Below are positions 1,207-58,040 of a stretch of 64,000 bases of DNA, piece after piece; within the stretch, counting starts at the first letter, position 1, and each line of letters starts with the position of its first letter. The notes under the pieces are model-generated. The model was given only the letters and a program-made list of their open reading frames with translations. It had not been told where the DNA came from and did not search any database. This DNA is from an uncultured Aquitalea sp. (lineage in GTDB: Bacteria; Pseudomonadota; Gammaproteobacteria; Burkholderiales; Chromobacteriaceae), in NCBI RefSeq assembly GCF_945957525.1, contig NZ_CAMFLA010000008.1, positions 1 through 64,000 on the forward strand. The letters run 5' to 3'. Both the position numbers and the translations under genes were made by a program.

Positions 1207-1339
1207 CTTCGGCCAACCTTCACATGGTTTTATTTGGGTGAATTATGCCGCATGAATCAGAAATATAGTGCTTATAGTTACGAAATTTCTGAATTTTGAG
1301 GTACGTTTTCGTTGATGCTGACTACGTGGTTTTACCATG

Positions 1340-1358
1340 TACCTTGCAAAGCAAGGTA
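1340..1358. promoter_or_regulatory. Operator-like perfect inverted repeat upstream of the padR gene
   Basis: TACCTTGC-AAA-GCAAGGTA is a perfect 8-bp inverted repeat about 80 bases before the padR start. A lone half-site TGCAAGGTA recurs at 1413-1421, close to the ribosome binding site. PadR regulators commonly repress their own operon through palindromes of this size, so autoregulation is the natural inference. Confidence 0.55.
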
Positions 1359-1437
1359 TTGAGCGCTACCATGAGCCTTGTCCTCTCCGGCATGCGATCA
1401 TCTATCGTGCAATGCAAGGTAGAGGGGGAGCCGATCA

Positions 1438-1776
1438 ATGAAAACACAATTGAAAAAAGGCACGCTGGACATGTGCGTACTGGCGGCGCTGGCCGCTGGC
1501 GACAGTTACGCCTACGAGTTGGTGGGCATCCTGTCGCGCACCATGGAAGTCAGCGAAGGGACCATGTATCCGCTGATGCGCCGCCTGCAGGCGGAAGCCT
1601 GGGTCTCCACTTATCTGGTGGAGTCGGCCAGCGGGCCGTCCCGCAAGTACTACACCCTCACCGAGGAGGGCCGGCGACAGCTGGCCTGGATGCAACGCGA
1701 GTGGCGGGAATTCGTCAATGAAGTGAACGGTGTGCTGGGCCTGGCGGCCGGCGCCGCAGAAGGAGAGTCGTCATGA
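1438..1776 (+). CDS. PadR family transcriptional regulator
   Basis: A 112-residue winged-helix repressor of the compact PadR subfamily. The N-terminal KKGTLDMCVLAAL helix, the YAYELVGIL segment, the recognition region SEGTMYPLMRRLQ (about residues 39-51) and the SRKYYTLTEEGRRQL wing are all present. The start ATG at 1438 is preceded by GGGGGAG. Its stop overlaps the start of the next gene by 4 bases (ATGA), which indicates translational coupling. PadR genes coupled to a DUF1700/HAAS membrane protein are a recurrent two-gene unit in bacteria, often tied to envelope stress; the signal sensed here is unknown. The upstream perfect palindrome suggests self-repression. Confidence 0.9.
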   Translation: MKTQLKKGTLDMCVLAALAAGDSYAYELVGILSRTMEVSEGTMYPLMRRLQAEAWVSTYLVESASGPSRKYYTLTEEGRRQLAWMQREWREFVNEVNGVLGLAAGAAEGESS

Positions 1777-2603
1777 GCGAGCAGGAATTCATCCGTCAGT
1801 TGCAGGAGGCCTTGTCCCGTTTGCCGGAGCGCGAGCGTCAGGAAATTCTCGACGACTATCGCGAGTATTTCCGTGATGGCGCGGAAGCGGGGCGCAGCGA
1901 GGCCGATATTGCGGCGGGGCTGGGCGACCCGCGTCAGCTGGCGCGAGAGCTGGCCGCGCGCCATCACATTCAGCAATGGGAAAGCCGCAAAAGCTTCGGC
2001 AACTTGTTCGCCGTAGTCGGCGCCATTGCCGGGCTGGGTTTTCTCAACTTTCTGCTGGCCATCCCCTTCATGTTCTACCTATGGATGCTCACCATGGCCG
2101 CTCTGGCGTCCACGGGCATCCTGATTGGCGGCGTCGTGGTATTCGGCACGCTGGTTTGCAATGAGCTGTTTGGCTGGCCGGCCATTCACGAAGGCCGGGA
2201 TGTGCGGGCGGTATGGTCGGCGCTTGAAGAGGGCGGGCCTTCGGCCAACATCCATATCAACGGCGACGGCGGCGAGAAGGTGGAAGTGCTGCGTGATGCA
2301 TCCAGCGGTCGCGCCAGCATCCATATTCTCTCCAGCGATGGCTCGATCAGCCTGGAGCGCGGCGCCAGTGACGCCGTGGGCCGGTTGCGCATCGAGGACG
2401 ACAAGGGGAGCGTGGATATTGACGGCATCGGCTGGGGCGTCAGCCGCAAGGGTATGTTGGCTACCGGCATCGTCTTGATGATGCTGGGCGGCGGCGGCCT
2501 GTTCTTGTGCTACTTGCTGGCGCGCTGGACCTGGCGCGGCCTGATGTCTTATGGGCGCTACCAGCTGGGCTTGCTGGACAGGGCCAGGCGGACGGAGTCC
2601 TGA
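1773..2603 (+). CDS. DUF1700 / HAAS-domain membrane protein
   Basis: 276 residues. The N-terminal 65 residues form a helical HAAS/DUF1700-type domain (FIRQLQEALSRLP...EILDDYREYFRDGAEAGRSE...GLGDPRQLARELAA). Two hydrophobic segments follow at roughly residues 78-125. A beta-rich stretch with IHING...IHILSSDGSISL resembles adhesin-like DUF4097 repeats, and a final transmembrane helix lies near residues 228-250. Such proteins are thought to sit in the inner membrane and work with the PadR regulator encoded just upstream. The gene overlaps padR by 4 bases. Two copies of the recurrent 10-mer TTCGGCCAAC fall in and just after this gene (2240 and 2608). Confidence 0.75.
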   Translation: MSEQEFIRQLQEALSRLPERERQEILDDYREYFRDGAEAGRSEADIAAGLGDPRQLARELAARHHIQQWESRKSFGNLFAVVGAIAGLGFLNFLLAIPFMFYLWMLTMAALASTGILIGGVVVFGTLVCNELFGWPAIHEGRDVRAVWSALEEGGPSANIHINGDGGEKVEVLRDASSGRASIHILSSDGSISLERGASDAVGRLRIEDDKGSVDIDGIGWGVSRKGMLATGIVLMMLGGGGLFLCYLLARWTWRGLMSYGRYQLGLLDRARRTES

Positions 2604-2625
2604 TGCCTTCGGCCAACCATGAAAA

Positions 2626-4763: not shown

Positions 4764-5426
<663 letters not shown>

Positions 5427-5725: not shown

Positions 5726-7882
5726 ATGGAGACCGGGAGCGAACCGGCGGTCGATTACGACGCCATGATCGAGCAGGAGGCCGCGGCCTTCTTCGACGCC
5801 GCAGGGCGTTACCTCAGGCCGGAAGACGTTCAGCTGCTGAGGCAGGCCTTTCAGGTCAGCCGGGAGGCGCATGAAGGGCAAACCCGCAAGAGCGGGGAGC
5901 CCTACATCACGCACCCGCTGGCGGTGGCCACCATGCTGACGGACTGGCGGCTGGACGTGCAGGGCCTGTGTGCCGCTTTGCTGCACGACGTGCTGGAAGA
6001 CACCGGCGTCACCAAGCCCACGCTGGCGGAAAAGTTCGGCAAGGTGGTGGCCGATCTGGTTGACGGCCTGTCCAAGCTTGAGCGACTGGAGTACCAGACC
6101 AAGGAAACGGCCCAGGCGGAGAATTTCCGCAAGATGGTGCTGGCCATGGCGCGCGACGTCCGCGTCATCCTGGTCAAGCTGGCGGACCGGCTGCACAACA
6201 TGCGCACGCTGGATTCCATGCGGGAAGACAAGCGCCAGCGCATCGCGCTGGAAACGCTGGAAATCTACGCGCCCATCGCCAATCGCATCGGTCAGAACAA
6301 GGTTTATCGCGAGTTGCAGGATCTGGCTTTCAAGCACCTGCATCCGCATCGCTACAACGTGCTGTCAAAAGCAGTGCGCGCCGCGCGCGGCAATCGGCGC
6401 GAGGTAGTGGACAAGATTCTCAAGTCGGTCAGCCAGCGTCTGGTGGAAAGCAATATCGAAGCCACCATCAAGGGGCGCGAGAAAAACCTCTACAGCATCT
6501 ACAAGAAGATGCAGGAAAAGCATCTGTCTTTTTCCGAGGTGCTGGATATCTACGGCTTCCGCGTCGTGGTCAACGACATTCCCAGTTGCTATCTCGCGCT
6601 GGGCGCCCTGCACAGCCTCTACAAGCCCATTCCGGGCAAGTTCAAGGATTACATCGCCATTCCCAAGGGCAATGGCTACCAGAGTCTGCATACAACCCTG
6701 TTCGGCCCCTACGGCACGCCGGTGGAAATGCAGATTCGCACGCGTGAAATGAACGGCGTAGCGGAAGTGGGCGTGGCTTCGCACTGGATGTACAAGAGCG
6801 GCGACGCCGGCATCAATACGGCCCAGCAGCGCACGCACCAGTGGCTGCAGAGCATTCTGGACATGCAGGAGGAAAGCGACGACGCCGTCGAATTCCTCGA
6901 GCACATCAAGATCGACCTGTTTCCGGACGAGGTTTACGTCTTTACGCCCAAGGGCAAGATCATGGTGTTGCCGCAAGGCTCCACACCGGTGGATTTTGCC
7001 TATGCCGTGCATACCGATGTGGGGCATCGCTGCATTGCCGCGCGCGTCAATCATGTGCTGATGCCGCTGCGCACGGTGCTGCGCAATGGCGATACCGTAG
7101 AGGTCATCACCTCCACCCAGGCCAAGCCCAATCCATCTTGGCTGACTTTCGTCCAGAGCGGTCGCGCCCGCTCCGGCATCCGCAACTACCTGAAGAGTCT
7201 GCAGCGCGAAGAGGCTGCCGCGCTCGGCGACAAGCTGCTGCGGCAAGCGGTGGGCGCTCTGGCGGTATCCCCGCTGGTGCTGGATGACGATCTGCGTGTT
7301 GAATACCTTGCGCATTATGGCGAGAAGCTGACCTCCTTCCAGGAGGTGCTGGCTGATATTGGCGCCGGCAAGCTGCTGCCCATCGCGGTGGCGCGCCGCT
7401 TGGTTGAGCTGGCCGGCGAGCGACTGGGCGAAGAGGTGCGAGTGGGGCCGGTGGTGATTCGCGGCAACGAAGGCGGCACCGTGCAACTTTCCAACTGTTG
7501 CAATCCCTTGCCTGGCGACGACATTCTGGGTGTCATCACCAAGGGGCAGGGCTTGGTGATTCATCGCGTGGGCTGCCCTAATGTGCAGCGGGTTGATCAC
7601 GACAAGTTGCTGGATGTGAACTGGGAGACCCAGCGCGATCGCATGTATGGCGTGGCGGTCAGTGTGCTGGCGCGTAATGAGCGCGGCGCGCTCGCCGACA
7701 TTGCCGCCGCCATCTCCCAGGCTTCGGCCAACATCGAAAGTGTCGATACGCAAGACACGCACGTGGGCGATGGCTTCATCCACATTCATTTCCGCCTGCA
7801 GGTGGAGAGCGTTGCGCATCTGGAAAAAGTGCTGGGCGAGGTGCAAAACCTGGTGGTGGTGCAGCGCGCCGAGAGGAGATAG
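5726..7882 (+). CDS. spoT: Bifunctional (p)ppGpp synthetase/hydrolase
   Basis: 718 residues from the ATG at 5726; a GTG two codons earlier (5720) is an alternative. The open frame extends back into rpoZ in another frame, but those residues are out-of-frame rpoZ. Domains in order: HD hydrolase with LLHDVLEDTG (HD..ED at residues 87-92), RelA/SpoT synthetase with KNLYSIYKKM and YIAIPKGNGYQSLHT, TGS domain (VFTPKGKIMVLPQGSTPVDFAY), the conserved-cysteine helical region (SNCCNPLPGD) and a C-terminal ACT domain. The intact HD..ED motif argues for hydrolase activity, and the PGKFKD segment occupies the place of the RxKD-type motif typical of bifunctional enzymes. No strong ribosome binding site is visible, and coupling to rpoZ (23 bases upstream) is likely. 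thiS follows after 3 bases. Confidence 0.93.
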   Translation: METGSEPAVDYDAMIEQEAAAFFDAAGRYLRPEDVQLLRQAFQVSREAHEGQTRKSGEPYITHPLAVATMLTDWRLDVQGLCAALLHDVLEDTGVTKPTLAEKFGKVVADLVDGLSKLERLEYQTKETAQAENFRKMVLAMARDVRVILVKLADRLHNMRTLDSMREDKRQRIALETLEIYAPIANRIGQNKVYRELQDLAFKHLHPHRYNVLSKAVRAARGNRREVVDKILKSVSQRLVESNIEATIKGREKNLYSIYKKMQEKHLSFSEVLDIYGFRVVVNDIPSCYLALGALHSLYKPIPGKFKDYIAIPKGNGYQSLHTTLFGPYGTPVEMQIRTREMNGVAEVGVASHWMYKSGDAGINTAQQRTHQWLQSILDMQEESDDAVEFLEHIKIDLFPDEVYVFTPKGKIMVLPQGSTPVDFAYAVHTDVGHRCIAARVNHVLMPLRTVLRNGDTVEVITSTQAKPNPSWLTFVQSGRARSGIRNYLKSLQREEAAALGDKLLRQAVGALAVSPLVLDDDLRVEYLAHYGEKLTSFQEVLADIGAGKLLPIAVARRLVELAGERLGEEVRVGPVVIRGNEGGTVQLSNCCNPLPGDDILGVITKGQGLVIHRVGCPNVQRVDHDKLLDVNWETQRDRMYGVAVSVLARNERGALADIAAAISQASANIESVDTQDTHVGDGFIHIHFRLQVESVAHLEKVLGEVQNLVVVQRAERR

Positions 7883-7885
7883 ACG

Positions 7886-8086
7886 ATGCGTCTTAGCATC
7901 AATGGCGAGGAGCGCGAGTTCGCCTCCTTGCGTACGGTGTCTGATCTGGTGACGGCGCTCGAGCTGACTGGCAAGCGCGTCGCCGTGGAGCGCAATGGAG
8001 AGATAGTGCCCCGCAGTCTGCATGGCACCGCCATGTTGGCCGAAGGGGATGTGCTTGAAATCGTGGTGGCGGTTGGCGGAGGCTGA
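7886..8086 (+). CDS. thiS: Sulfur carrier protein ThiS
   Basis: 66 residues with a beta-grasp ubiquitin-like fold. [12 protein letters not shown] starts it and it ends in ...EIVVAVGGG; the terminal Gly-Gly is the site that is adenylated and thiocarboxylated to donate sulfur for the thiazole of thiamin. It starts 3 bases after the spoT stop with GAGAGGAG as ribosome binding site, so it is almost certainly on the spoT transcript. thiG follows within 25 bases. Confidence 0.93.
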
Positions 8087-9835: not shown

Positions 9836-11617
9836 TTGATTCCGCAGGACTTTGTTGATCAGTTGTTGTCCCGCGTCGATATTGTCGACGTGGTGGATCG
9901 TTACGTCCCGCTGAAAAAGGCGGGCCAGAACTATTTGGCCTGCTGCCCGTTTCACAAAGAAAAATCCCCCTCCTTCACGGTCAGCCCGTCCAAGCAGTTC
10001 TACCACTGCTTTGGTTGTGGCGCGCACGGTTCCGCCATCGGTTTTGTGATGGAGTACCAGGGGCTGGGTTTCGTCGATGCCGTGCGCCTGTTGGCCGAAG
10101 GCATCGGCATGCAGGTGCCGCAAGAAAAGGTGGCCAATCCCGAAGCCAGCCGCAAAGCGCGAGAGCGCCAGATGTCGCTGGAAGAGGCCATGCAGTTGGC
10201 TGCCGGTTATTACAAGCAACAGCTCAAGTCCGCGCCCAACGCCATTGCTTACTTGAAAGGGCGGGGCGTAACCGGCGAGGTGGCCGCACGTTTCGGGCTG
10301 GGTTATGCCCCCGGTGACTGGCAGAACCTGCAGGCCGTGTTTCCGCAGTATCAGGACGACAAGCTGGCGGATGCCGGCTTGGTGATCGTCAACGAAGAAA
10401 AGGGCCAACGCTACGACCGCTTCCGCGATCGCGTGATGTTTCCCATCCGCAACCAGCGGGGTGCCATCATCGGCTTTGGCGGCCGGGTGATGGGCAAGGG
10501 CGAGCCCAAATACTTGAACTCGCCGGAAACGCCGCTATTTGAAAAAGGCCGCGAGCTTTACGGGCTGTATGAAGCGCGACAGAGCATACGCGAAAAAAAC
10601 CGCGTGCTGGTCGTGGAGGGCTATATGGATGTGGTGGCGCTGTCGCAATACGGCATTGCCTACGCAGTCGCCACCCTGGGCACGGCCACCACTGGCGATC
10701 ACGTGCGCAAGCTGCTGCGTCATGCCGACCAGGTGTACTACTGCTTTGACGGCGACAACGCCGGCCGCAAGGCGGCTTGGCGGGCGCTGGAAAACAGCCT
10801 GCCGCAGCTGCAGGACGGCAAGTCGCTGAACTTCCTGTTCCTGCCAAGCGAGCACGATCCGGACAGCTATGTGCGCGAATTCGGCGCGGAGGCATTTGAA
10901 AAGCTGCTCGAAGAGCAGAGCCTGCCGCTGTCCGCCTACTTTACCCGCGAGCTGACTGGCCGCGTTGACATGAATACCCCGGAAGGGCGGGCCGACCTCA
11001 TTCGTCAGGCTTCGCCGCTTCTGGCACAGATTGCCGCTCCGGCGCTGGGCTTCATCATCAGGAAACGGCTGGCCGAACTGGCCGGCATTGACGTCGACGA
11101 ATTCGACATGCTGACAACCGGAAAGCCCAGACCGGAACGCAAGGGCAAGCGTGAGTATCGCTTGCCGGAGGAGTCGCACCGCCAGATCCATACCCCCATC
11201 ATCCGCAAGCAAATCAAATGGCTGCTGATGAATCCGGCGTGGGCGGGCGATGTGCGGCTGCCGGACAGCGTGCCGCTGTCCGACGAACTGGCCTGCTTCG
11301 CCATGTTGGCCGAAAGCGTGCAAGAGCACGATCAGCCGCCGAATACCGCGCAACTGCTGGAGGGCCTTAGAGGCACCCCATACGAAGGCATGATCGACAG
11401 CATCCTGCAACAGGCGATGCAGGACCAGGACGAGTTTGCCGATCCGGGCGAAGACGATCGCACGCAATTTCAGGACGGCAATGAAAAGCTGATGAAAATG
11501 CTGCGTGAAGCCCAACTGGAGAGGCTAAAACTGAAAGACCGGCAGGAAGGACTCACGCCGGAGGAAAAGGCACTTTTCAGGGAACTGCTGAAGGAACTGC
11601 TGGGCGCCTCGAACTGA
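9836..11617 (+). CDS. dnaG: DNA primase
   Basis: 593 residues. It begins with TTG at 9836; an in-frame TAA two codons before that start excludes anything further upstream. The N-terminal CHC2 zinc domain has C37-P-F-H40 and C58-x-x-C61. The RNA polymerase core carries the TOPRIM segment VLVVEGYMDVVAL (about residues 255-267) and YYCFDGDNAGRKAA. The C-terminal part (about 440 onward) should bind the DnaB helicase. DnaG makes RNA primers for replication. A rare TTG start in an essential gene may help keep primase levels low relative to its operon neighbours rpsU and rpoD. Copies of the recurrent 10-mer GTTGGCCGAA lie at 10090 and 11305. Confidence 0.95.
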   Translation: MIPQDFVDQLLSRVDIVDVVDRYVPLKKAGQNYLACCPFHKEKSPSFTVSPSKQFYHCFGCGAHGSAIGFVMEYQGLGFVDAVRLLAEGIGMQVPQEKVANPEASRKARERQMSLEEAMQLAAGYYKQQLKSAPNAIAYLKGRGVTGEVAARFGLGYAPGDWQNLQAVFPQYQDDKLADAGLVIVNEEKGQRYDRFRDRVMFPIRNQRGAIIGFGGRVMGKGEPKYLNSPETPLFEKGRELYGLYEARQSIREKNRVLVVEGYMDVVALSQYGIAYAVATLGTATTGDHVRKLLRHADQVYYCFDGDNAGRKAAWRALENSLPQLQDGKSLNFLFLPSEHDPDSYVREFGAEAFEKLLEEQSLPLSAYFTRELTGRVDMNTPEGRADLIRQASPLLAQIAAPALGFIIRKRLAELAGIDVDEFDMLTTGKPRPERKGKREYRLPEESHRQIHTPIIRKQIKWLLMNPAWAGDVRLPDSVPLSDELACFAMLAESVQEHDQPPNTAQLLEGLRGTPYEGMIDSILQQAMQDQDEFADPGEDDRTQFQDGNEKLMKMLREAQLERLKLKDRQEGLTPEEKALFRELLKELLGASN

Positions 11618-11688: not shown

Positions 11689-13620
11689 ATGGCGGCCTCT
11701 CCCGAAAATCAGAAAGACGTACAAGACTCCCAACAGGGCGTCATGAGCCTGGAAGAACAGCGCAAGCGCCTGCGCCAGCTCATCGCCCTTGGCAAAGAAC
11801 GTGGTTATCTCACCTATGCGGAGATCAACGACCACCTTCCGGAAGACGTATCCGATGCTGAACAGATCGAAAACATCATCACGATGATTTCCGGTCTGGG
11901 CATTCAGGTGTATGACGAAGCACCTGATGCCGAAACCCTGCTGATGTCCGACGCCACCCCGGCGGTTGCGGACGAAGACGCCGTGGAAGAAGCCGAAGCG
12001 GCACTCTCCTCGGTGGATTCCGAATTCGGCCGCACAACCGACCCGGTGCGCATGTACATGCGCGAAATGGGCTCGGTTGAACTGCTGACACGCGAAGGCG
12101 AAATCGAAATCGCCAAGCGCATCGAAGACGGCCTCAAGCACATGATCCTCGCCATCTCCGCCTGCCCGGGCACGGTGGCGGAAGTGCTGGAGCTGATCGA
12201 GCGCATCGGCAAGGAAGAAATCCGCGTTGATGAAGTGGTGGATGGTTTCATCGACCCCAACGCCGATGCGGAAGAAGCGGCGTTGCCCTTCGCCGAACCT
12301 GCCGTTGACGAGGATGAGCTGCTCGACGAGGAAGAAGAGGAAGAAGAGGACGACGACGGCAGCAGTGCCGAGGCGGCCAACAACGCCAATCTGGAAGAGC
12401 TCAAGCAGCAAGCGCTGGAGCACTTCGCCGGCGTTCGCATGATGTTCGACAAGATGGTCAAGGTGCTGGACAAGCACGGTTCCAAGTCCAAGGAATACCT
12501 TGAACTGCAGGACGCCATCACCACCGAATTCATGATGGTGCGCTTTGCCACTCGCCAGATCGAAGCCTTGTGCGAATCGCTGCGCCGCCGCGTCAACGAA
12601 ATCCGCACCTTCGAGCGCGATATTCAGGACATCTGTGTCAGCCGCGTCCGCATGGACCGCGCTCACTTCATCAAGGTGTTCCCGGGCAATGAAATCAACA
12701 CCGCCTGGGTGGAAGACGAAATCGCTTCAGGCAAGGCCTGGAGCGAAGCGCTGACCCGCTTCAAGTACGCGATCATTGAGAAGCAGACCAAGCTGTCCGA
12801 GTTGCAGGACCGCGCCATGCTGCCGATCAAGGAGCTGAAGGAGATCAACCGCCAGATGTCGGCGGGCGAATCCAAGGCCCGTCGCGCCAAGAAGGAAATG
12901 ATCGAGGCCAACTTGCGCCTGGTGATTTCCATCGCCAAGAAGTACACCAACCGTGGTCTGCAGTTCCTCGATCTGATCCAGGAAGGCAACATCGGCCTCA
13001 TGAAGGCGGTGGACAAGTTCGAATACCGTCGCGGTTACAAGTTTTCGACCTACGCCACCTGGTGGATTCGTCAGGCCATAACCCGCTCCATCGCGGACCA
13101 GGCCCGCACCATCCGTATCCCGGTGCACATGATCGAAACCATCAACAAGATGAACCGCATTTCGCGTCAGATCCTGCAGGAAACCGGTCGCGAGCCGGAT
13201 CCGGCGGAGTTGGCCGAAAAGATGGAAATGCCGGAAGAGAAGATTCGCAAGATCATGAAGATTTCCAAGGAGCCTATCTCCATGGAAACCCCGATCGGCG
13301 ACGACGACGATTCCCATCTTGGCGACTTCATCGAGGACCAGAACAACCTGGCGCCGTCCGATGCCGCGATGTACTCCAGCCTCAAGGATGCTACCAAGGA
13401 AGTGCTGGACACCCTCACGCCGCGCGAGGCCAAGGTGTTGCGCATGCGCTTCGGCATCGACATGAACACCGACCACACGCTGGAAGAGGTGGGCAAACAG
13501 TTTGACGTAACGCGAGAGCGTATTCGTCAGATTGAAGCCAAGGCGCTGCGCAAACTGCGTCATCCGACCCGTTCGGAGCGTCTGCGCAGCTTCCTCGACA
13601 ACGAGCCGGGCGGCCAGTAA
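11689..13620 (+). CDS. rpoD: RNA polymerase primary sigma factor (sigma-70)
   Basis: 643 residues. Region 1.1 (about residues 20-80, [27 protein letters not shown]) is followed by region 1.2 with [29 protein letters not shown], and then a long acidic non-conserved insert with an [10 protein letters not shown] run near residues 215-225. Regions 2.1-2.4 contain [39 protein letters not shown] and the -10 recognition helix [15 protein letters not shown]. Regions 3-4 end in the -35 recognition [20 protein letters not shown]. It is preceded by AGGAAG. It has its own extended -10 promoter and ends in a terminator. Confidence 0.97.
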
Positions 13621-13642
13621 TTCTTGCCTGAGGTATTCGATA

Positions 13643-13677
13643 AAATCCCCATGCCCTGCGGTGTGGGGATTTTTCTT
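13643..13677 (+). terminator. Rho-independent terminator of the rpsU-yqeY-dnaG-rpoD operon
   Basis: AAATCCCCA and TGGGGATTT pair over 9 bp around a 12-base loop, followed by TTCTTTTA. It lies about 20 bases after the rpoD stop. Confidence 0.85.
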
Positions 13678-13683
13678 TTACTC

Positions 13684-13692
13684 TGATATAAT
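13684..13692 (+). promoter_or_regulatory. Extended -10 promoter of the tRNA gene
   Basis: TGATATAAT (TGnTATAAT) lies 10 bases before the first base of the tRNA. The GC-rich GCGCCGC stretch that follows resembles the discriminators seen at stringently controlled stable-RNA promoters. Confidence 0.55.
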
Positions 13693-13702
13693 GCGCCGCT
13701 TC

Positions 13703-13779
13703 GGGCCTTTAGCTCAGTCGGTTAGAGCAGAGGACTCATAATCCTTTGGTCGTGGGTTCAAGTCCCACAGGGCCCACCA
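13703..13779 (+). tRNA. tRNA with CAT anticodon (tRNA-Ile2 or elongator tRNA-Met), integration site
   Basis: 77 bases including an encoded CCA. The acceptor stem GGGCCTT pairs with AGGGCCC (one G.T). The D arm is AGCTCAGTCGGTTAGAGCA. The anticodon stem GAGGA/TCCTT closes the loop CTCATAA, giving anticodon CAT at 13736-13738. The T arm is GTGGG-TTCAAGT-CCCAC. C-G pairs at acceptor positions 4 and 5 are features used by TilS on tRNA-Ile2, so the isoleucine (lysidine-modified) type is favoured, but Met cannot be excluded by eye. The gene is a hybrid. From the anticodon arm onward it is supplied by the integrated element, and the displaced original 3' half, with a different T stem, lies at 20824-20870. 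Confidence 0.93.
13733..13751 (+). repeat. attL-type core repeat inside the tRNA gene
   Basis: GACTCATAATCCTTTGGTC covers the anticodon arm and variable region. It is identical to 20824-20842. To its right the T-stem sequences of the two copies differ, which places the crossover within these 19 bases. Confidence 0.88.
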
Positions 13780-13788
13780 AACAAATCA

Positions 13789-13829
13789 ACGGCTTACGGC
13801 ACTTTTGCTGTGGGCCGTTTTCCTTTTCC
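13789..13829 (+). terminator. Possible terminator after the tRNA
   Basis: ACGGC and GCCGT can pair across a loop in a stretch ending GCCGTTTTCCTTTTCC. It lies inside the element and would end tRNA transcription, taking over from the host terminator displaced to 20879. Confidence 0.4.
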
Positions 13830-13836
13830 AATGTCT

Positions 13837-13856
13837 GTGTACTCGCTGTGTACTTG
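13837..13856 (+). repeat. Left pair of integrase arm-type repeats
   Basis: GTGTACTCG (13837-13845) and GTGTACTTG (13848-13856) are direct repeats spaced 11 bases apart. The same pair at the same spacing and orientation occurs at 20675-20694, near the other end of the element. Paired direct repeats inside both att ends are the layout expected for the N-terminal arm-binding domain of a tyrosine integrase. Confidence 0.55.
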
Positions 13857-17466: not shown

Positions 17467-17521
17467 TGGGGTTAAATCTTATAAAGCGCAACACACCTTC
17501 CTTCCTGTCATCGAGGGATAG

Positions 17522-46619: not shown

Positions 46620-47627
46620 GTGACCCTTTCCCGCCAGAGCGCGCGCCTCAATCTGCTGCTGACCGCCTTGTCGCTGCGGCTCGCCTTTGCCGAGCTGGTG
46701 GCGGTGCCGCTGGCGGTGGGCTGGTTCGATCCGCGCTGCGCCTTGCCCTTGATCGCCATTGCCTTGTTTGCGCCCTTGCGCTGGCAATTGCTGCATGAGG
46801 CGGCGCATGGGCTGCTGCTGCCGCAGCGTGGCCGCAACGATCTGAGCGGGCGCGTGATGGGGGTGTGCTTCTTGGTGCCCTTCGACTTGTGGCGACTGGC
46901 GCACCGCTGGCATCACGTTGCCGGCCGCAGCCGCTGCGGCAAGGTGGATGTGTATGAACCGGGGCCGTGGCAACGCTGGCGTTGCCGGCTGGCTTTGTGG
47001 CTGCGACTGCTGGGCGGAGCTTATGCGATGGCGGTACTGGCCGGGCTCGCCTGTCTTTTGCCGGCGTGCTGGCTGCGGCGGCGAGGTTTGCCGAAAGGTT
47101 TGCGTTTGGCCCTGCGCCATGGCCGGCGCGCCAGACGTCTGCGCTGGGACGCCGGCGCCGGCGCGGCGCTGTACGGACTGGCCGCCTGGCTGTACGGTGA
47201 TGCCTTTTGGATGCTGGCGCTGGCCGTGGCGGCGCGGGCCTTGCTGGTGTCTCTGGGCGATCAGCCGTGCTTCGCCGGCCAAGGGCTGGGCGATCCGTCG
47301 CTGGCGGCCAATCTCTCCCTGCCGCGCTGCTTGGGGCCAGCACTGCTCAACGCGCATTTGCGCGGCATGCACCATCGGCGGCCCGATCTTGGCTGGCAAT
47401 CGTTGCCCGAGGCATTCGCGCGCGGGGCCAGCTGCTGGGATGGCCGCTACTGGCAGGCCGTGTGGCGGCGACAGTGGCGCGCGCATCCCGCGCCGTCGCT
47501 CCCGGTAATACCCCTGCGCAAGGCAGGGCCGACAGGTATAATGCCGGCTGATTTCATTACGACGCGCCACCATGACCCAGCTCAAGAACGACACCTTCCT
47601 GCGCGCGCTCCTGAAGGAGCCGGTTGA
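46620..47627 (+). CDS. Fatty acid desaturase-like membrane protein
   Basis: 335 residues from a GTG at 46620. Several hydrophobic stretches are present, with histidine boxes LHEAAHG (about residues 59-65), HRWHH (about 95-99) and HLRGMHH (about 246-252). These are the three di-iron boxes of membrane desaturases and hydroxylases. It may introduce a double bond or hydroxyl group into a lipid or pigment. The frame runs 56 bases into hemE; the last 20 residues ([21 protein letters not shown]) are simply hemE read in another frame, so the original stop may have been lost. The hemE promoter -10 candidate (TATAAT, about 47537) lies inside this gene. Confidence 0.75.
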
Positions 47628-48633
47628 ATACACCCCGATCTGGATGATGCGCCAGGCGGGCCGCTACCTGCCGGAATACCGCGCCAGCCGCGCTCGCGCC
47701 GGCAGCTTCATGGGGCTGTGCACCAGCCCTGACTTCGCCACCGAAGTGACATTGCAGCCGCTGGACCGCTTCCCGCTGGACGCCGCCATCCTGTTTTCCG
47801 ACATCCTCACCGTGCCGGACGCCATGGGGCTGGGTCTGTATTTCGCCGAAGGCGAAGGCCCCAAGTTCGAGCGTCCGCTGCGCGACGAAGCCGCCATTCG
47901 CGCGCTGGCCGTGCCGGATCTTGGCCGCCTGCAGTACGTGTTCGACGCCGTTGCCAGCATTCGCAAGGCGCTGGATGGCCGCGTACCGCTGATCGGCTTC
48001 TCCGGCAGCCCGTTCACCCTGGCGTGTTACATGATTGAAGGCGGCGGCTCCGATGATTTCCGCCACATCAAGGCCATGCTCTACAGCCGCCCGGAACTGC
48101 TGCATCACATCCTGTCCGTCACGGCGGATACCGTCACCGCCTACCTGAACGCCCAGATCGACGCCGGCGCGCAAGCGGTGCAGATTTTCGATACCTGGGG
48201 CGGCGCGCTCAGTCACGCGGCCTATAAGGAGTTCTCGCTGGCTTACATGCAGCGCATCATCACCGGCCTGAAGCGCGAAGCTGACGGTCGTCGCGTGCCG
48301 GTAATCGTCTTTACCAAGAACGGCGGTCAGTGGCTGGAGGACATCGCCGCCATCGGCGCGGATTGCGTCGGGCTGGACTGGACCACCGACATCGGCCTGG
48401 CCCGTGCCCGGGTGGGCGACAAAGTGGCGCTGCAAGGCAATTTCGACCCCAACGCCCTGTTTGCCGAACCGGCCGCCATCGAGCGCGAAGCCGGCCGCAT
48501 CCTCGCTGCCTATGGCAAGGGCAGCGGTCATGTGTTCAACTTGGGCCACGGCATTTCCCAGCATGTGGACCCTTCCCACGCCGCCGCGCTGGTTGAAGCG
48601 GTGCACAAGCTGTCCCGTCCCTACCATCTGTAA
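47572..48633 (+). CDS. hemE: Uroporphyrinogen decarboxylase
   Basis: 353 residues. Converts uroporphyrinogen III to coproporphyrinogen III in heme synthesis. [16 protein letters not shown] (residues 20-35) is the first signature, and [20 protein letters not shown] is the second. [17 protein letters not shown] carries the catalytic aspartate region. The start [18 protein letters not shown] is well conserved. Its 5' end overlaps the desaturase-like gene by 56 bases in another frame. Confidence 0.96.
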
Positions 48634-49208: not shown

Positions 49209-51389
49209 TTGAACCAGCCCGCCGTCCGCCACCAGGTGCTTGTCGATGTGCCCCTGTTTGGCGCATTCACCTACCTGTCTCATTTTGATGTCATGGCCGG
49301 GCAGCGCGTGGTCGTTCCCTTCGGCAAACGTCAGTTGTGTGGCGTGGTTGTCACTGGCATACCCCCCGAGGGTGTAGACGAGAGTCGACTCAAGTCCATC
49401 ATCCGCCCGCTGGAGGGGCTGCCGCCGTTGCCCGCGGATTTTTTGCGGCTGGTTTCCTTTGCTTCCGCTTACTACCACTACCCGGAAGGGCAGACCCTGT
49501 TCACGGCGCTGCCCACCGCCTTGCGCGATCCCAAAGACATCCGCCGGGTTGATGAACGTCTCTTCGGCCTGACCGATGCGGGGCTGGCAGAAGCACCACC
49601 GGCGCGCAGCCGCGGCCGCCTGGCCTTGTGGCAGGCCATGCAGGACGGTCCCGTCAGTCTGGCGGCTGCACGTGAGTTATACGCGCAGGCCGGCAAGTGG
49701 TTGGCCGAAGAACTGGACGCCGGCCGGGTGGAACGGGTTGAGCCCGAGCCCACGCCGCTGGTGGTGGGCAATACGCCGCCCTTGACCGGGCAGCAAGCGG
49801 CGGCGCTAGAGCAGCTTTACGCTGCGCCGGCAGGCTACTCGGCCTGGTTGCTGCACGGGGTGACCGGCAGCGGCAAAACCGAGGTCTACCTGCAATGGAT
49901 AGCCCGGCTGCTGGCGGCAGGCCGGCAGGTGCTGGTGTTGGTGCCGGAAATCAATCTGACGCCGCAACTGATCAACCGCTTTCTGCTGCGTTTTCCCGCC
50001 AGTCGCATTGCCGTGCAGCATAGCAATCTCGCCGATGGCGAGCGCTTGCGCGGCTGGGTGGATGCCTGGCAGGGCAGGGCGGATGTAGTGATCGGTACCC
50101 GTCTGTCGGTGTTTACGCCCATGCCGCGCTTGGGTTTGATCGTGGTGGACGAGGAGCATGACGGTTCCTTCAAGCAACAGGATGGCCTGCGTTACCATGC
50201 CCGCGATCTGGCGGTATGGCGCGCGCGCGAAGCCGGCGTACCGGTGCTGCTGGGCTCCGCCACACCCAGCCTCGAGACCATGGCCAATGTGGAGGCGGGG
50301 CGCTATCGCCGGCTGGTGCTGGACAAACGCGCACACGGGGCGGCCAGCTTGCCGCGCGTGGGGCTGATCGACACCCGTCGCTTGCGCCTGCAGGACGGCT
50401 TGTCGCCCCAGGTGATGTCGGCGCTGGAGGCGCGGCTGGCAAAACGGGAAATGAGCCTGGTGTTCATCAACCGTCGCGGCTTTGCTCCGGTGCTGGCCTG
50501 CACCGATTGCGGCTGGACCAGCGGTTGCCCGCGCTGTTCCACGCGGCTGGTGTTGCATCTGCGTGAGCGACAACTGCGCTGCCACCATTGCGGCTGGGAA
50601 GAAACGGTGCCGCCGGCTTGTCCTGAGTGCGGCGCGCCGGACATCAAACCGCTGGGCGAGGGCACGCAAAGGCTGGAGACCGCGCTGGCTCAGCGTTTTC
50701 CCCAAGCGCGCATTCTGCGCATCGACCGGGACACCACGCAACGCAAGCAGGCGTGGGATGAGATATACCGCAGCGTCAACGCCGGGGAAGTCGATATCCT
50801 GGTGGGGACGCAGATGCTGGCCAAAGGCCACGACTTCGGCAACCTCTCGCTGGTAACGGTGCTGGGCGCGGACGGCGGACTGTACTCGGCTGATTTTCGC
50901 GCCGCCGAACGGCTGTTTGCCCAGTTGATGCAAGTGGCCGGCCGTGCCGGGCGCGCGGATGCGCCGGGCGAAGTACTGGTGCAGACGCAATGGCCGGATC
51001 ATCCGCTATACCAGGCCTTGATTCGCCACGATTTTGACGGTTTCGCCCGGCATTTGCTGAGCGAGCGCCGTCAACTGGGCTTCCCGCCCGCCGCCTATCA
51101 GGCCATGTTGCGGGCCGATGCCCCGGCGCTGCAGGACGCAAGCCGTTTTCTCACCGCGGTGCGCGCGGCGGCGGAGAGCCTAGCCGAAGGCGTACTGGTG
51201 TCCGGCCCCGCGCCGGCGCTGATGGTGCGGCTGGCCAATCGCGAGCGGGCCCAACTGGTGCTGGAGTCCTCCAGCCGGCAGGCGCTGCACGCTTTCATAG
51301 ATCAATTGTTGCCGCTGGCGGAGGCTGAGGCCCGTCGTCAGTCGCGCGGTTTGCGCTGGTCGCTTGATGTCGACCCGCAGGAGTGTTGA
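49209..51389 (+). CDS. priA: Primosomal replication-restart helicase PriA
   Basis: 726 residues from a TTG at 49209 with GAGGAA upstream; a GTG at 49164 in the same frame is possible but lacks a ribosome binding site. The N-terminal 3'-DNA-end-binding domain (VLVDVPLFGAFTYLSHFDVMAGQRVVVPFGKRQLCGVV) is followed by the helicase core with Walker A LLHGVTGSGKTEVYLQ, DEEHDGSFKQQDGLRYHARDLA and ATPSLET. The double zinc-binding insert has CTDCGWTSGCPRCSTRL...CHHCGWEETVPPACPECGA. TQMLAKGHDFGNLSLV and RAAERLFAQLMQVAGRAGR close the core. It reloads the replisome at stalled forks. dacB begins directly at its stop codon. Confidence 0.95.
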   Translation: MNQPAVRHQVLVDVPLFGAFTYLSHFDVMAGQRVVVPFGKRQLCGVVVTGIPPEGVDESRLKSIIRPLEGLPPLPADFLRLVSFASAYYHYPEGQTLFTALPTALRDPKDIRRVDERLFGLTDAGLAEAPPARSRGRLALWQAMQDGPVSLAAARELYAQAGKWLAEELDAGRVERVEPEPTPLVVGNTPPLTGQQAAALEQLYAAPAGYSAWLLHGVTGSGKTEVYLQWIARLLAAGRQVLVLVPEINLTPQLINRFLLRFPASRIAVQHSNLADGERLRGWVDAWQGRADVVIGTRLSVFTPMPRLGLIVVDEEHDGSFKQQDGLRYHARDLAVWRAREAGVPVLLGSATPSLETMANVEAGRYRRLVLDKRAHGAASLPRVGLIDTRRLRLQDGLSPQVMSALEARLAKREMSLVFINRRGFAPVLACTDCGWTSGCPRCSTRLVLHLRERQLRCHHCGWEETVPPACPECGAPDIKPLGEGTQRLETALAQRFPQARILRIDRDTTQRKQAWDEIYRSVNAGEVDILVGTQMLAKGHDFGNLSLVTVLGADGGLYSADFRAAERLFAQLMQVAGRAGRADAPGEVLVQTQWPDHPLYQALIRHDFDGFARHLLSERRQLGFPPAAYQAMLRADAPALQDASRFLTAVRAAAESLAEGVLVSGPAPALMVRLANRERAQLVLESSSRQALHAFIDQLLPLAEAEARRQSRGLRWSLDVDPQEC

Positions 51390-52763
51390 GTGAAGAAGTC
51401 AGTCTGGATGTGCTTGAGTCTGTGCGTCCTGGCCGGTCAGGCCGCGGCGCTGGATCTGCATGGCTTGCGCCCGGATGAAATCGCCCTGTGGGCGGCGCCG
51501 GTGGAAAACAAGGGCGAGTTGCTGGCCCATAGGGCGGATGCGCCGGTGAATCCGGCCTCCACCATGAAACTGGTCACCAGCTGGGCGGCGCTGGAAATCC
51601 TTCGGCCAACCTATCGCTGGACCACGCGGCTGGTGAGCGACGCGCCCGTGGTGGACGGCGCGCTCAAAGGCGACCTCTACTGGATAGGCGCGGGCGATCC
51701 GCGCTTCAGCGAAGCGGACCTCTCTCAGTTGCTGCGCGATCTGCGTCTGCGCGGGGTGCGCCGCATCGAGGGCCGGCTGATGCTGGACAAGAGCGTCTTC
51801 GGCCAACTGTCCAACGCCGACGGCTTTGAGGAAGACGAAGGCAAAACCTTTACCGTGGGACCGGACAGTCACCTTACCGGGCTCAAGGTGGCCTGGTTGC
51901 GTTTCTTCAATGATGAGAACGGTGCGCGCGTGGTACTGGATCCGCCCTTGCCGGGCATCAGCGTCAACAGCGCGCTCAGGCCGAGCGGCAATGAAAGCTG
52001 CAAGGATGTGCGCCAGTGGGCCAGCATCCGGCAAGAGGGCGACAAGGTCAGTATCAGCGGCGTGCTGCCGCGCGCTTGCGACGGTGCGCGCGCCTACCTG
52101 AATGTGCTGGATCACAACAGCTTCGCCAATCAGTCCTTCAGCGCCTGGTGGCAAGAGCAGGGCGGCGCCGGTCCTCAGGGTTTTGGCGTGGGAACCGCGC
52201 CAGCCGGCGCACGTGAACTGGCCAGCCATCAATCCGAGCCGATGACGGCGGCGCTGGCCGACATGAACAAATACAGCAACAACACCATGGCCCGCACCCT
52301 GTTCCTCACCATCGGCCATGAAGCCGGCGGCGACAACCCGGTAGCGGATGCCGGCAAAGCAGTACGGCAATTGCTGGCTTCACGCCAGATCGATGCCTCG
52401 GCGCTGGTGCTGGAAAATGGTAGTGGGCTGTCCCGCCGCGAGCGGGTGACCGCGCGCATGCTTGGCGAAGTGTTGCGCGACGCGGCGCGTGGTCCGTATG
52501 GCGGCGAGCTGATCGCCAGCCTGCCCATCGCCAGCGAAGATGGCACGCTGAAAAAGCGCTTCGCCGTCTGGGGGCCGCGCATCCGCATGAAAACCGGCAC
52601 GCTCAAGAACGTCAAGGCGCTGGCGGGCTACTGGCAGGCGGCGGATGGTCGGCGGCTTGCGCTGGTGGCCATCGTCAACAGTCCGCGCGCCCTGGAGATG
52701 GGCGCGGCGCTGGATGCTGTGGTTGGCGATGCAATTCGTCAATTTGATTCAAGTGCGCAATAG
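51390..52763 (+). CDS. dacB: D-alanyl-D-alanine carboxypeptidase/endopeptidase (PBP4 type)
   Basis: 457 residues from a GTG at 51390, immediately after the priA TGA, with CAGGAGTG as ribosome binding site. A signal peptide (VWMCLSLCVLAGQAAA) precedes the penicillin-binding fold. The SxxK motif is PASTMK (S57, K60), SxN is in NKYSNNTMAR, and KTG is in RMKTGTLKNVKALAGYW; a PBP4-type insertion lies between the first two. It cleaves D-Ala-D-Ala ends and cross-links in peptidoglycan in the periplasm. Two copies of the recurrent 10-mer lie within it (51601 and 51798). Confidence 0.93.
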   Translation: MKKSVWMCLSLCVLAGQAAALDLHGLRPDEIALWAAPVENKGELLAHRADAPVNPASTMKLVTSWAALEILRPTYRWTTRLVSDAPVVDGALKGDLYWIGAGDPRFSEADLSQLLRDLRLRGVRRIEGRLMLDKSVFGQLSNADGFEEDEGKTFTVGPDSHLTGLKVAWLRFFNDENGARVVLDPPLPGISVNSALRPSGNESCKDVRQWASIRQEGDKVSISGVLPRACDGARAYLNVLDHNSFANQSFSAWWQEQGGAGPQGFGVGTAPAGARELASHQSEPMTAALADMNKYSNNTMARTLFLTIGHEAGGDNPVADAGKAVRQLLASRQIDASALVLENGSGLSRRERVTARMLGEVLRDAARGPYGGELIASLPIASEDGTLKKRFAVWGPRIRMKTGTLKNVKALAGYWQAADGRRLALVAIVNSPRALEMGAALDAVVGDAIRQFDSSAQ

Positions 52764-56068: not shown

Positions 56069-56219
56069 TTTGCGTGATAATTTGAGATAAATATCGCAAA
56101 AAATTATAAACTGTTTCTTTTTGGTAAATTATTTTAAGCGTAAAACCCGCCGGCAGGCATGCTGAGGGCGGGCTGGGCAAGGGCGAGGCGTGCAGGGGTA
56201 ATTGTTGGCGGCGGGCTGG

Positions 56220-56783
56220 TCAGCTTGGTTTGTCTTCTTCCGTACCGGAAGAGGCAGGTGCTTCGCTTTCTCGCAGCAGCAAGGCGGTGATGGCGTCCAT
56301 GTCGAAGTGGCCGGTTGTACTGACCAGCCTTTCCGCGTAATAAACGCGGTCGTTGGCATCTGCAATCAGGATGGCAGGCGCCGTATAGCCGCTCAGCGGA
56401 TGGCCCATGGCCAGCACGCCGTACTGCTTGTGAAAGTCCCGGCCGCGCAGGGTGGACAACAACACCACGCCGGGCAGACCATGCTCGCGCCGGGCGCGTT
56501 GCAGCGAAGAGGGGGAGTCAACGCTGATGACGATCAGCCGCAGCATGGGCCAGGCGGCGAGATCGCGACGGATCTTGCGCAGAAGGTCCATGCCGCCGTG
56601 TTCTTCCTCATCCAGCGACAGCAGGGTCACAATCACCTTGGGCTCGCCGGCAAAGCGCTCTAGCGCTATGTCCTGCTTGCTTTCGTCCACCAGCATGAAG
56701 CTGGGCAGACAGTCGCCAGTCTCGGGAAAATCGCCAACCACCGGGATGGCTTCATCGCCGTATCGCAGCATGAACTCACTCAT
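56220..56783 (-). CDS. Tpx-like peroxiredoxin-fold protein lacking both catalytic cysteines
   Basis: 187 residues from the ATG at 56783, which has AAGGAGGAAG at ideal spacing. The body aligns with thiol peroxidase Tpx: VGDFPETGDCLPSFMLV, GEPKVIVTLLSLDEEEHGGMDLLRKI, LRLIVISVDSPSSLQRARREHGLPGVVLLSTLRGRDFHKQYGV and GYTAPAILIADANDRVYYAERL. At the position of the peroxidatic cysteine (S-[IL]-D-x-x-x-C) it has H62, and the resolving-cysteine site reads RRE. The only cysteine is C25, outside the active site. Classical peroxidase activity is therefore unlikely. It is the last gene in the aroQ-accB-accC-prmA-DUF3426 direction. Confidence 0.78.
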   Translation of the reverse strand: MSEFMLRYGDEAIPVVGDFPETGDCLPSFMLVDESKQDIALERFAGEPKVIVTLLSLDEEEHGGMDLLRKIRRDLAAWPMLRLIVISVDSPSSLQRARREHGLPGVVLLSTLRGRDFHKQYGVLAMGHPLSGYTAPAILIADANDRVYYAERLVSTTGHFDMDAITALLLRESEAPASSGTEEDKPS

Positions 56784-56857
56784 GGGCTTCCTCCTTGTGC
56801 GTCCTGTATGGTTGGCCGGTCTGTGCGGAAAAGCAAGCGCGTTGTACAAATGAAAAT

Positions 56858-56875
56858 GGCAACCCGCAGGTTGCC
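56858..56875 (-). terminator. Terminator-like hairpin after the DUF3426 gene
   Basis: GGCAACC-CGCA-GGTTGCC is a perfect 7-bp stem; on the minus strand ATTTTC follows. Confidence 0.5.
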
Positions 56876-56897
56876 ATATGGCCGTCAGTTGTGCCGG

Positions 56898-58040
56898 TCA
56901 GGGATAAAACCAGTAAAGGCTGTATCCCATGGCTCTCACCTTGCCGGCGTCCAGCCGCATGGTGATCTTCACTTCGCTGTTGGGATTGAAGTGCTGCAGC
57001 TTGAGATCATCGGCTTTCAGGTATTCCTTGGGGGTAAATACCTTGCGGATCAGCACCTGATCGTCGGCATCTTTCAGCGACAGCTCCAGCATCGGATATG
57101 TCTGCGCAAAAGATGCGTGATTCTTCAGTGTGGCGGAAAGCTGGATCAGGTTGGGGTGGTCAGGCACGAAGGCAAGTTCGGACCATTCCGTGCGGATCTG
57201 CGAAACATCGGTCGGCCAGGGGACGGCGCAGCCCGCGGCTTTGCACAGGCTTTCCAGCGTGGGGCGCATCTCTGGTACTTCCGCCGCAATGCGGGTGCGG
57301 TTGAAATAAACCAGCTGACCGGCTACCAGCAGCACGCCCAAAATCCCCAGCACACCCATCAGTATGTTCAGGGCGGGGTGACGGCGTCGCGGTGCGACGT
57401 CTTCCTCGCGGGCCTCTTCATCCAGGCCCAGATCGCCGTAGTGGTGCGCCGACCTCGGCTTGGCGGCCGGGGGAGCGGGCGGTTCATCCAGCGCGAAAAC
57501 GGGCGCTGCGGGCTCCGTGGCTGGCGCATCGGCGCTGTCTTCATCGCGCTTGCGACGATTGTTGCCGAACACTTCCGGCAGCGGTGCGTCTTCTGGCGGG
57601 GTGAGCGGTTCTATTGTGGCGCGGCTGGCGGCGGGGCGATGGCTTAGCGCTTCAGCCAGCGCACGCTGGAATTCTTCGGCTTCACTGTTGGCCGAAGGCG
57701 CGACGGGTTCTTCCTGCGGTGTGGTCAGCGGAGATTCTTCCGCGGCGTCCTGTGCGGCGCCGGGGTCGAAATCCGGCATTTCCAGCTCGAAATCATCCGC
57801 CGGATCGGCGGCGGGGGCCGCGTCGTGCTGGAGAGCGGGTGCGGGAGGCGGTGTCTCCACGGGAGCGGACGGAGGGAGGGGTGCCGGCGCGGGGGGCGGC
57901 TCCGGACTGACGAAATGATCCGGCGCTTTGAAGACGTGGGTGCAGCGCCCGCAACGGACCAGGCCGTTGGCGGCGGACAACTGTGCGTCGTTAACCTTGA
58001 ATCGGGTTTGGCAGTTGGGGCACTGGGTCGTATACGTCAT
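56898..58040 (-). CDS. Zinc-ribbon (MJ0042) and DUF3426 membrane protein
   Basis: 380 residues. The N-terminal zinc ribbon MTYTTQCPNCQTRFKVNDAQLSAANGLVRCGRCTHVFKA has CxxC pairs at about residues 7-10 and 30-33. A long Pro/Ala/Glu-rich disordered linker (about 45-235) leads to one transmembrane helix (ALNILMGVLGILGVLLVAGQLVYF). A DUF3426 domain follows (YLKADDLKLQHFNPNSEVKITMRLDAGKVRAMGYSLYWFYP at the end). The ATG overlaps the prmA stop (ATGA). Function unknown; it is a regular neighbour of prmA in betaproteobacteria. Confidence 0.85.
   Translation of the reverse strand: MTYTTQCPNCQTRFKVNDAQLSAANGLVRCGRCTHVFKAPDHFVSPEPPPAPAPLPPSAPVETPPPAPALQHDAAPAADPADDFELEMPDFDPGAAQDAAEESPLTTPQEEPVAPSANSEAEEFQRALAEALSHRPAASRATIEPLTPPEDAPLPEVFGNNRRKRDEDSADAPATEPAAPVFALDEPPAPPAAKPRSAHHYGDLGLDEEAREEDVAPRRRHPALNILMGVLGILGVLLVAGQLVYFNRTRIAAEVPEMRPTLESLCKAAGCAVPWPTDVSQIRTEWSELAFVPDHPNLIQLSATLKNHASFAQTYPMLELSLKDADDQVLIRKVFTPKEYLKADDLKLQHFNPNSEVKITMRLDAGKVRAMGYSLYWFYP

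Follow-up and report, generated by a model that had tools for sequence, protein, structure and literature searches.

The stretch of DNA considered here (hereafter, the window) comprises 64,000 nucleotides from an uncultured Aquitalea species of the family Chromobacteriaceae (contig NZ_CAMFLA010000008.1 of assembly GCF_945957525.1), and contains a dispersed 10-mer, GTTGGCCGAA, that, together with a second form, GTTTGCCGAA, is probably a DNA uptake sequence (DUS), with a ComP-like pilin serving as receptor (a probability of about 0.83). The lineage-specific GTTGGCCGAA signal is real, strong and genome-wide, and an uptake sequence appears, from sequence comparison, to be by far the best reading of it.

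An exact recount returned the 23 copies of GTTGGCCGAA (14 on the plus and nine on the minus strand, spanning 1208..57696) given in a preliminary description of this DNA, while 100 dinucleotide shuffles of the window contained a mean of 0.27 copies and a maximum of two. GTTGGCCGAA headed the ranking of 10-mers in the window, as did its parts and its extension those of 9- and 11-mers. The seven copies of GTTTGCCGAA in the window are listed below after those of GTTGGCCGAA, together with the words seen at the aligned places in related loci, where GTTGGCCGAG and GTTGGCCGCA are the corresponding words of other genera, and carriers and non-carriers are genomes with and without such a word.

1208-1217, minus strand: GTTGGCCGAA, abutting the start codon of the minus-strand open reading frame (ORF) 160-1206
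2240-2249, minus strand: GTTGGCCGAA
2608-2617, minus strand: GTTGGCCGAA, probably intergenic; 10-mer also at the aligned place in Gulbenkiania mobilis
5072-5081, plus strand: GTTGGCCGAA; same in strain JH1-16, GTTGGCCGAG in Crenobacter luteus, GTTGGCCGCA in Vogesella loci
7723-7732, minus strand: GTTGGCCGAA; same in Gulbenkiania and JH1-16, GTTGGCCGAG in C. luteus
8035-8044, plus strand: GTTGGCCGAA; GTTGGCCGAG in C. luteus
10090-10099, plus strand: GTTGGCCGAA, within dnaG; GTTGGCCGAG in C. luteus
11305-11314, plus strand: GTTGGCCGAA, within dnaG; same in Gulbenkiania, JH1-16 and three non-carriers
13209-13218, plus strand: GTTGGCCGAA, within rpoD; same in JH1-16, GTTGGCCGAG in C. luteus
25068-25077, minus strand: GTTGGCCGAA, probably intergenic
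27618-27627, minus strand: GTTGGCCGAA
30177-30186, plus strand: GTTGGCCGAA
31430-31439, plus strand: GTTGGCCGAA
34149-34158, plus strand: GTTGGCCGAA
36054-36063, plus strand: GTTGGCCGAA
37439-37448, minus strand: GTTGGCCGAA
38588-38597, plus strand: GTTGGCCGAA
42718-42727, plus strand: GTTGGCCGAA, probably intergenic
49700-49709, plus strand: GTTGGCCGAA, within priA
51601-51610, minus strand: GTTGGCCGAA
51798-51807, minus strand: GTTGGCCGAA
54952-54961, plus strand: GTTGGCCGAA
57687-57696, plus strand: GTTGGCCGAA
112-121, plus strand: GTTTGCCGAA, second form
32647-32656, plus strand: GTTTGCCGAA, second form
33880-33889, plus strand: GTTTGCCGAA, second form
47086-47095, plus strand: GTTTGCCGAA, second form
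48459-48468, plus strand: GTTTGCCGAA, second form
49320-49329, minus strand: GTTTGCCGAA, second form
61943-61952, plus strand: GTTTGCCGAA, second form

The copies at 1208, 2608, 25068 and 42718 had been described as intergenic and, upon inspection of the ORF list by eye, indeed lie between likely genes, with longer alternative ORFs overlapping those at 2608 and 42718.

In the whole genome (G000; 4,045,770 bases), GTTGGCCGAA occurs 1,368 times (670 + 698), as compared with 21 times (9 + 12) for a control in which the word is read backwards; GTTTGCCGAA occurs 616 times, as compared with eight for its reversed control. A count of all 10-mers against a Markov model had been proposed together with the original observation. 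In a 1.217-Mb sample of the genome (contig C1 whole, parts of C4, C6, C9, C12 and C14, and the window), GTTGGCCGAA was the top 10-mer by raw count, with 412 copies against 19 expected from a fifth-order model. These copies are divided between the strands as 200/212, bearing out the reported absence of strand bias, with a slight lean to the strand of the local GC skew (230:182). A polar strand signal on C1, where an apparent run of plus-strand copies begins after 222 kb, was considered and rejected, as a direct count gave 58/62. Copies occur in coding and in non-coding DNA and on both strands alike, as expected of the DUS of Neisseriaceae.

The distribution of the copies among reading frames was addressed in the same 1.217-Mb sample, using gene calls from a crude script of our own (coding share, 83%) and an expectation calculated from the tripeptides present and the codon usage of the sample. 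Coding sequences contained 312 copies of GTTGGCCGAA, as compared with about 19.5 expected, with an excess being obtained in each of the six frames, namely, LAE (173 versus 9.5), SAN (66 versus 1.05), FGQ (50 versus 8.1), VGR (11 versus 0.08), WP (8 versus 0.8) and RP (4 versus 0.01); the reversed control gave seven copies, with about 2.9 expected. Fully 66 of the 131 Ser-Ala-Asn tripeptides are copies of GTTGGCCGAA. Leucine is encoded by TTG in 219 of 468 Leu-Ala-Glu tripeptides (47%), as compared with 16% of all leucine codons, in agreement with an earlier remark on the use of TTG within the word. For GTTTGCCGAA, 144 coding copies were counted and about 10 expected. Non-coding DNA accounted for 98 of the 412 copies, probably an overestimate given the crude gene calls, and the density there is not lower than in coding DNA. 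A count close to the codon-usage expectation had been named as the outcome that would speak against the proposal; the values found lie far above it in each frame. The excess over the codon-usage expectation in all six frames points to selection on DNA and not on protein.

The extended consensus of the word is AG-GTTGGCCGAA-G, with raw counts among the 412 copies of 220 for A at -2, 182 for G at -1 and 329 for G at +11. Six of the samples from seven other carriers likewise had A as the leading base at -2 and G at -1, the exception being Gulbenkiania (eight copies), where -2 is more often G. Single-base variants of GTTGGCCGAA remain at about background, except for GTTTGCCGAA and small excesses, chiefly of C at positions 1, 3 and 5. 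Inverted, hairpin-forming pairs are a feature of the DUS of Neisseriaceae; here, when copies lie no more than 60 bases apart, seven of eight such pairs are inverted, with starts separated by 13-18 bases; what is unusual about these close pairs is their orientation and spacing and not their number, the total not being in excess.

To place the window among its relatives, a DnaG tree of 34 rows was considered, in which two Aquitalea sequences form the sister group of the window (support 99/96). In an order-wide draw of 399 genomes, including 13 of the family, high counts of GTTGGCCGAA were obtained only for G000 and G283, with the next value among the matches listed being 47. In 61 genomes of the family, GTTGGCCG followed by AA, CA or AG was found in 23 and was missing from 38. 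The three dialects, all of which share GTTGGCCG, are GTTGGCCGAA (the AA form), GTTGGCCGCA (the CA form) and GTTGGCCGAG (the AG form). The AA form is high in eight genomes of five genera, with 183-2,168 copies (G000, 1,368; G283, 1,245; G428, 579; G429, which is Neisseriaceae bacterium JH1-16, 2,168; G436, 1,851; G437, 1,104; G438, 183; and G439, 893), the CA form is high in all 13 genomes of the genus labeled g2 (1,871-2,895 each), and the AG form in both genomes of g160 (1,940 and 1,590, with 77 and 78 copies of the AA form). The 38 non-carriers comprise nine genomes of g1, the genus of G000, as well as 19 of g3, four of g159 and six of g162, and show counts at background or in slight excess, the largest being those of G431 (62 AA, 92 AG) and G434 (45 AA, 85 AG). 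The nine genomes of g1 each contain 11-36 copies of GTTGGCCGAA. Judging from named loci, g2 would correspond to Vogesella, g160 to Crenobacter luteus-like bacteria, g3 to Chromobacterium and g1 to Aquitalea. Across these genomes, GTTGGCCGAA is one dialect of what appears to be a family-wide signal, in which genera differ in the last two bases.

Among loci of the dnaG region, the AA form was found eight times in Gulbenkiania mobilis and 13 times in JH1-16, the AG form nine times in C. luteus, and the CA form 13 times in each of Vogesella fluminis and Vogesella oryzae, four times in Vogesella urethralis (within 15 kb), 16 times in strain L13 and five times in one metagenome-assembled genome (MAG); loci from Aquitalea, Craterilacuibacter, Crenobacter intestini and Crenobacter caeni contained 0-2 copies of any form. 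As positive control, the same 10-mer ranking, applied to Neisseria loci, recovered the words already known from that genus. De novo ranking of 20-80-kb samples of g1, g3, g159 and g162, and of ten pooled Chitinibacteraceae-type loci, revealed no similar word, although sparse words would escape such ranking.

Several side observations were made in these comparisons. G428 (579 copies) and G438 (183 copies, an incomplete draft, 84%) are low relative to their kin (893-2,168), perhaps reflecting a decaying system. In the nine other g1 genomes, GTTTGCCGAA occurs 25-66 times, with 4-22 for the reversed control, which could be the residue of a lost dialect or a matter of codon usage. The Chitinibacteraceae samples contain a TATGAGTCC-like word (8-9 copies in 214 kb). 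A 12-kb locus of the MAG Neisseriaceae bacterium RGIG6070 from sheep omasum (L059) contains 10 copies of GTCTGCCGGA, 11 of TCTGCCGGAA and 14 of CAAGTAAAGC, which may represent a local repeat or one more word not yet described.

The positional conservation of the copies was considered in a single locus, about 20 kb in length. At the places of the six copies between 5072 and 13209, a word of the own dialect is present in five of six instances in C. luteus, four of six in JH1-16 and two of six in Gulbenkiania, loci that are 77% identical to the window overall at the DNA level. At the same places, the nearer non-carrier Aquitalea aquatica (82% identity) presents one of six, as do the further non-carriers Chromobacterium haemolyticum and Chromobacterium sphagni, with Aquitalea sp. 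L028 presenting one of five and Paludibacterium yongneupense none of five. When all aligned copies were considered, some of the alignments being doubtful, the carriers C. luteus, JH1-16 and Gulbenkiania gave 5/6, 4/6 and 3/7, while the non-carriers A. aquatica, L028, C. haemolyticum, C. sphagni and P. yongneupense gave 1/11, 1/8, 1/6, 1/8 and 0/5, respectively. Since gene positions are shared with distant carriers and few are shared with nearer non-carriers, some of the copies are probably older than the separation of these genera, with the nearest relatives having mostly lost them. This one locus would favor repeated loss over repeated gain.

The relation of the word to acquired DNA was addressed using low GC content as a proxy for foreign origin. 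In the 14 4-kb bins of less than 56% GC, GTTGGCCGAA occurs 0.29 times per bin, as compared with 1.41 in the 290 bins elsewhere; by contrast, 60 shuffled control words of the same letters showed no depletion in AT-rich bins. The equal density in acquired DNA that had been put forward as evidence to the contrary was thus not what this proxy gave. In the window, the foreign element said to be free of copies lies in a GTTGGCCGAA-free stretch of 11.85 kb, from 13218 to 25068. With copies spaced 2,867 bases apart on average, a gap of this length has a chance of about 1.6%; a single gap is weak evidence for the avoidance of foreign DNA, support coming rather from the AT-rich bins. The components of this region are as follows:

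about 13.8-20.9 kb: small integrated element adjoining tRNA-Met, GC content about 52-54%
13703-13779: tRNA-Met, beside the integrated element
14651-16366: ORF of 571 amino acids in the element, without Pfam match
16771-17466: ORF in the element resembling a replication protein, by eye
18729-18980: helix-turn-helix ORF in the element, by eye
19298-20632: integrase of the element

Elsewhere in the window, TATCTCATTT and CTCATTTGAG were noted, with 5 occurrences as compared with 0.03-0.04 expected, possibly a local repeat.

Candidates for the receptor were sought among the pilin-like proteins of G000, nine of whose 18 matches were scanned with Pfam. Four of these nine matched PF16732, a broad family named after ComP. 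One is encoded outside the window:

G000:C9:75150-75599: ComP-like minor pilin, matching PF16732 and solved ComP chains

The three best solved-structure matches of this C9 pilin are all ComP chains, namely, 2m3k (2.8e-10), 5hz7 and 2nba. The PF16732 pilins encoded on C6, C12 and C14 were rejected as ComP, as ComP is not among their solved-structure matches. A profile of the orthologues from seven carriers scored 77.9 bits with 2nba and 70.8 bits with 2m3k, and one from six non-carriers 46.3 and 50.8 bits, respectively, both being small hand-chosen sets. A larger set of 53 rows was drawn from the 61 family genomes, of which four (g159) are without a clear orthologue and G403, G411, G415 and G418 were left out, as was one G436 paralogue; weak g162 orthologues from G432, G433 and G434 (E 9e-9 to 3e-13) are included. 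The loop F/Y-K-x-T/S-S-T-x-W-P-x-L-P is common to most carriers' proteins and Neisseria ComP, and K/R is found in the alpha1-beta1 loop of 22 of 23 carriers and none of 30 non-carriers. By homology, the C9 pilin is the likely receptor. ComEC, DprA and TIGR00426, which we take to be ComEA, are also encoded in G000. Of 14 control genomes, ComEC was matched in 12 and DprA in 10 as well; genes of this type are widespread and tell only that uptake is possible. The minor-pilin cluster itself (G000:C9:71358-76772; L119, L122 and L123) holds 3-5 copies per overlapping 3-kb locus, above the genome mean.

Sister dialects, the AG-G flank, position-conserved copies and the ComP orthologue each lend support to the suggestion, made in the preliminary description, that this lineage may use an uptake sequence of its own. 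We infer binding of the word by the C9 pilin and a word-dependent uptake. In the proposed mechanism, a ComP-like minor pilin displayed on type IV pili would bind extracellular double-stranded DNA carrying the 10-mer, retraction of the pilus would pull the bound DNA through the outer membrane, ComEA and ComEC would move one strand into the cytoplasm, and DprA and RecA would recombine it. The steps that follow binding are established in other species. Because DNA bearing the word would be taken up more often, the word would spread and be kept in genes and gaps on either strand, with foreign inserts being without it.

Several observations weigh against an uptake sequence read by this pilin. Vogesella-type loci share only 1/5, 1/5, 1/5 and 1/4 of the aligned copies of the window. 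The number of close pairs (8) is that given by chance (about 8.4). The 12-mer AGGTTGGCCGAA agrees with AG-simDUS in nine of 12 bases and with AG-DUS in eight, yet this resemblance to Neisseria is modest, in that 0.8% of permuted 12-mers equal the best value of 9/12 (six of the eight dialects having been compared) and, for the 10-mer alone, 7.6% of permutations match Neisseria dialects as well. The CTG core is not present in the dialects found. The exception to the loop residue is G000 itself, with T instead of lysine, and the protein tree needs two word changes and one residue change; since only one or two changes are needed, the association of loop and word is not independent evidence. The ComP orthologue is also present in most non-carriers (30 extracted), and is thus no predictor of the word. 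The beta1 cysteine is missing in all 54 aligned rows. Two cysteines are present in 37 of the 53 rows, three in 10, four in five and five in one, the last and one of the four-cysteine rows being over-long frames; the arrangement of four conserved cysteines, two disulfides and a DD region by which ComP is defined (PMC4906244) was not found. According to the available portions of the respective reports, the second disulfide of Neisseria ComP pins the DD region at beta1 (PMC4906244), and both bridges are crucial for binding (PMC12061091). If the C9 pilin is the receptor, it would read DNA with a simpler tip, without a second disulfide of the Neisseria kind.

Some of these points bear on the possibility, which we consider unlikely, that the word is an uptake sequence recognized by another minor pilin or a periplasmic protein, the ComP orthologue being structural. 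At least four PF16732 pilins are encoded, the orthologue occurs in 30 non-carriers and is without the beta1 cysteine, and other pilin-like ORFs lie within 8 kb of it in at least four of seven loci, an arrangement also seen for PilE in other bacteria. Yet solved ComP structures were recovered with the C9 pilin alone, whose alpha1-beta1 loop varies in step with the word, G000 excepted. It is quite improbable that GTTGGCCGAA instead serves a protein that organizes or segregates the chromosome, or marks a hotspot of recombination (KOPS-, matS- or Chi-like); the chromosome-organizing site, an alternative raised in the preliminary description, gained no positive support. Such a site could be genome-wide, lineage-specific and avoid AT-rich segments, as does the word, and the 230:182 lean relative to GC skew would fit; polar signals of the KOPS or Chi type should, however, be strongly oriented, whereas 200/212 was seen, organizing sites are usually far fewer than the copies of GTTGGCCGAA, and one carrier against nine non-carriers in a single GTDB genus, together with last-base changes between genera, is unlike such systems. 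An origin in DNA modification or repair unrelated to uptake, as a highly iterated word like HIP1, would agree with the extreme abundance of the word, inside and outside coding sequences, and with its scatter among genera; it is highly improbable, given that HIP1 is palindromic and GTTGGCCGAA is not, and would leave the AG flank and the link to ComP unexplained. Finally, the idea that codon and amino-acid usage alone explain the word, to which the common Leu-Ala-Glu frame (173 of the 312 coding copies) lends itself, is already refuted by the excess in all six frames (312 versus about 19.5), the non-coding density and the 11-36 copies in nine genomes of the same genus.

It seems somewhat likelier than the converse that the uptake-sequence system predates Neisseriaceae, in that an AG-G....C-Y-G word, recognized by a single-disulfide ComP, was already in use in the ancestor shared with Chromobacteriaceae, that the CTG core and DD region came later in Neisseriaceae, and that Chromobacterium, Paludibacterium and most Aquitalea lost specificity while mostly keeping the pilin. 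Were this so, dialects, receptor loop and system loss could be traced through a whole environmental family.

In the open-licence literature, no description of GTTGGCCGAA as an uptake sequence was found, although Table S1D of PMC3630211, which holds the over-represented 10-mers of Frye et al. (2013), may list the word for related genomes, such as those of Pseudogulbenkiania or Lutiella. The available portions of PMC10715097 and PMC11316581 treat DUS within Neisseriaceae. The published view, as given in accessible parts of PMC3630211, holds the CTG core to be universal and places the origin of the system later than the divergence from Chromobacterium, and DNA reading by ComP has been called enigmatic in the portion of PMC12061091 considered. 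If true, the present reading would overturn both the universal core and the post-Chromobacterium origin, and would extend uptake sequences to a second family. It would also supply naturally occurring receptors, some specific and some not, in which to study the reading of DNA by ComP, as well as a tag of practical use in the transformation of Vogesella, Gulbenkiania and their kin.

In comparison with known systems, the uptake signal sequences (USS) of Pasteurellaceae would work in the same way as GTTGGCCGAA, being likewise short and present in thousands of copies in competent bacteria, with sequence and lineage being unrelated. Chi, KOPS and HIP1 are also abundant short words, the first two polar and the third palindromic, whereas GTTGGCCGAA is neither. 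The DUS of Neisseriaceae, with AG-DUS and AG-simDUS being nearest, share with the words described here a length of 10-12 bases, thousands of copies, dialects by genus, AG before the leading G, GAA or GCA ends, and presence on both strands and in genes and gaps. As is the case for DUS, GTTGGCCGAA is in very high excess, is the most abundant 10-mer and, with low GC as proxy, is rare in acquired DNA. ComP of Neisseria (2m3k, 5hz7, 2nba) resembles the C9-type pilins in being a minor type IV pilin, in its globular part and in the carrier loop, but differs in that these pilins are without the beta1 cysteine and the G000 loop has T for lysine. According to accessible parts of PMC3630211, all eight described DUS dialects present CTG at +6 to +8 and A at +10. 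The Chromobacteriaceae dialects have CCG instead of this core; A at +10 is kept by the AA and CA dialects, while the AG dialect ends in G. By analogy, then, GTTGGCCGAA would act like a DUS but is not filed in the CTG-core family, because the CTG core and DD region fail. DUS are known from Neisseriaceae, whereas the GTTGGCCGAA family was found in Chromobacteriaceae, and a probable CCG-core uptake signal of the Neisseria type in a sister family thought to be without such tags looks to be new.

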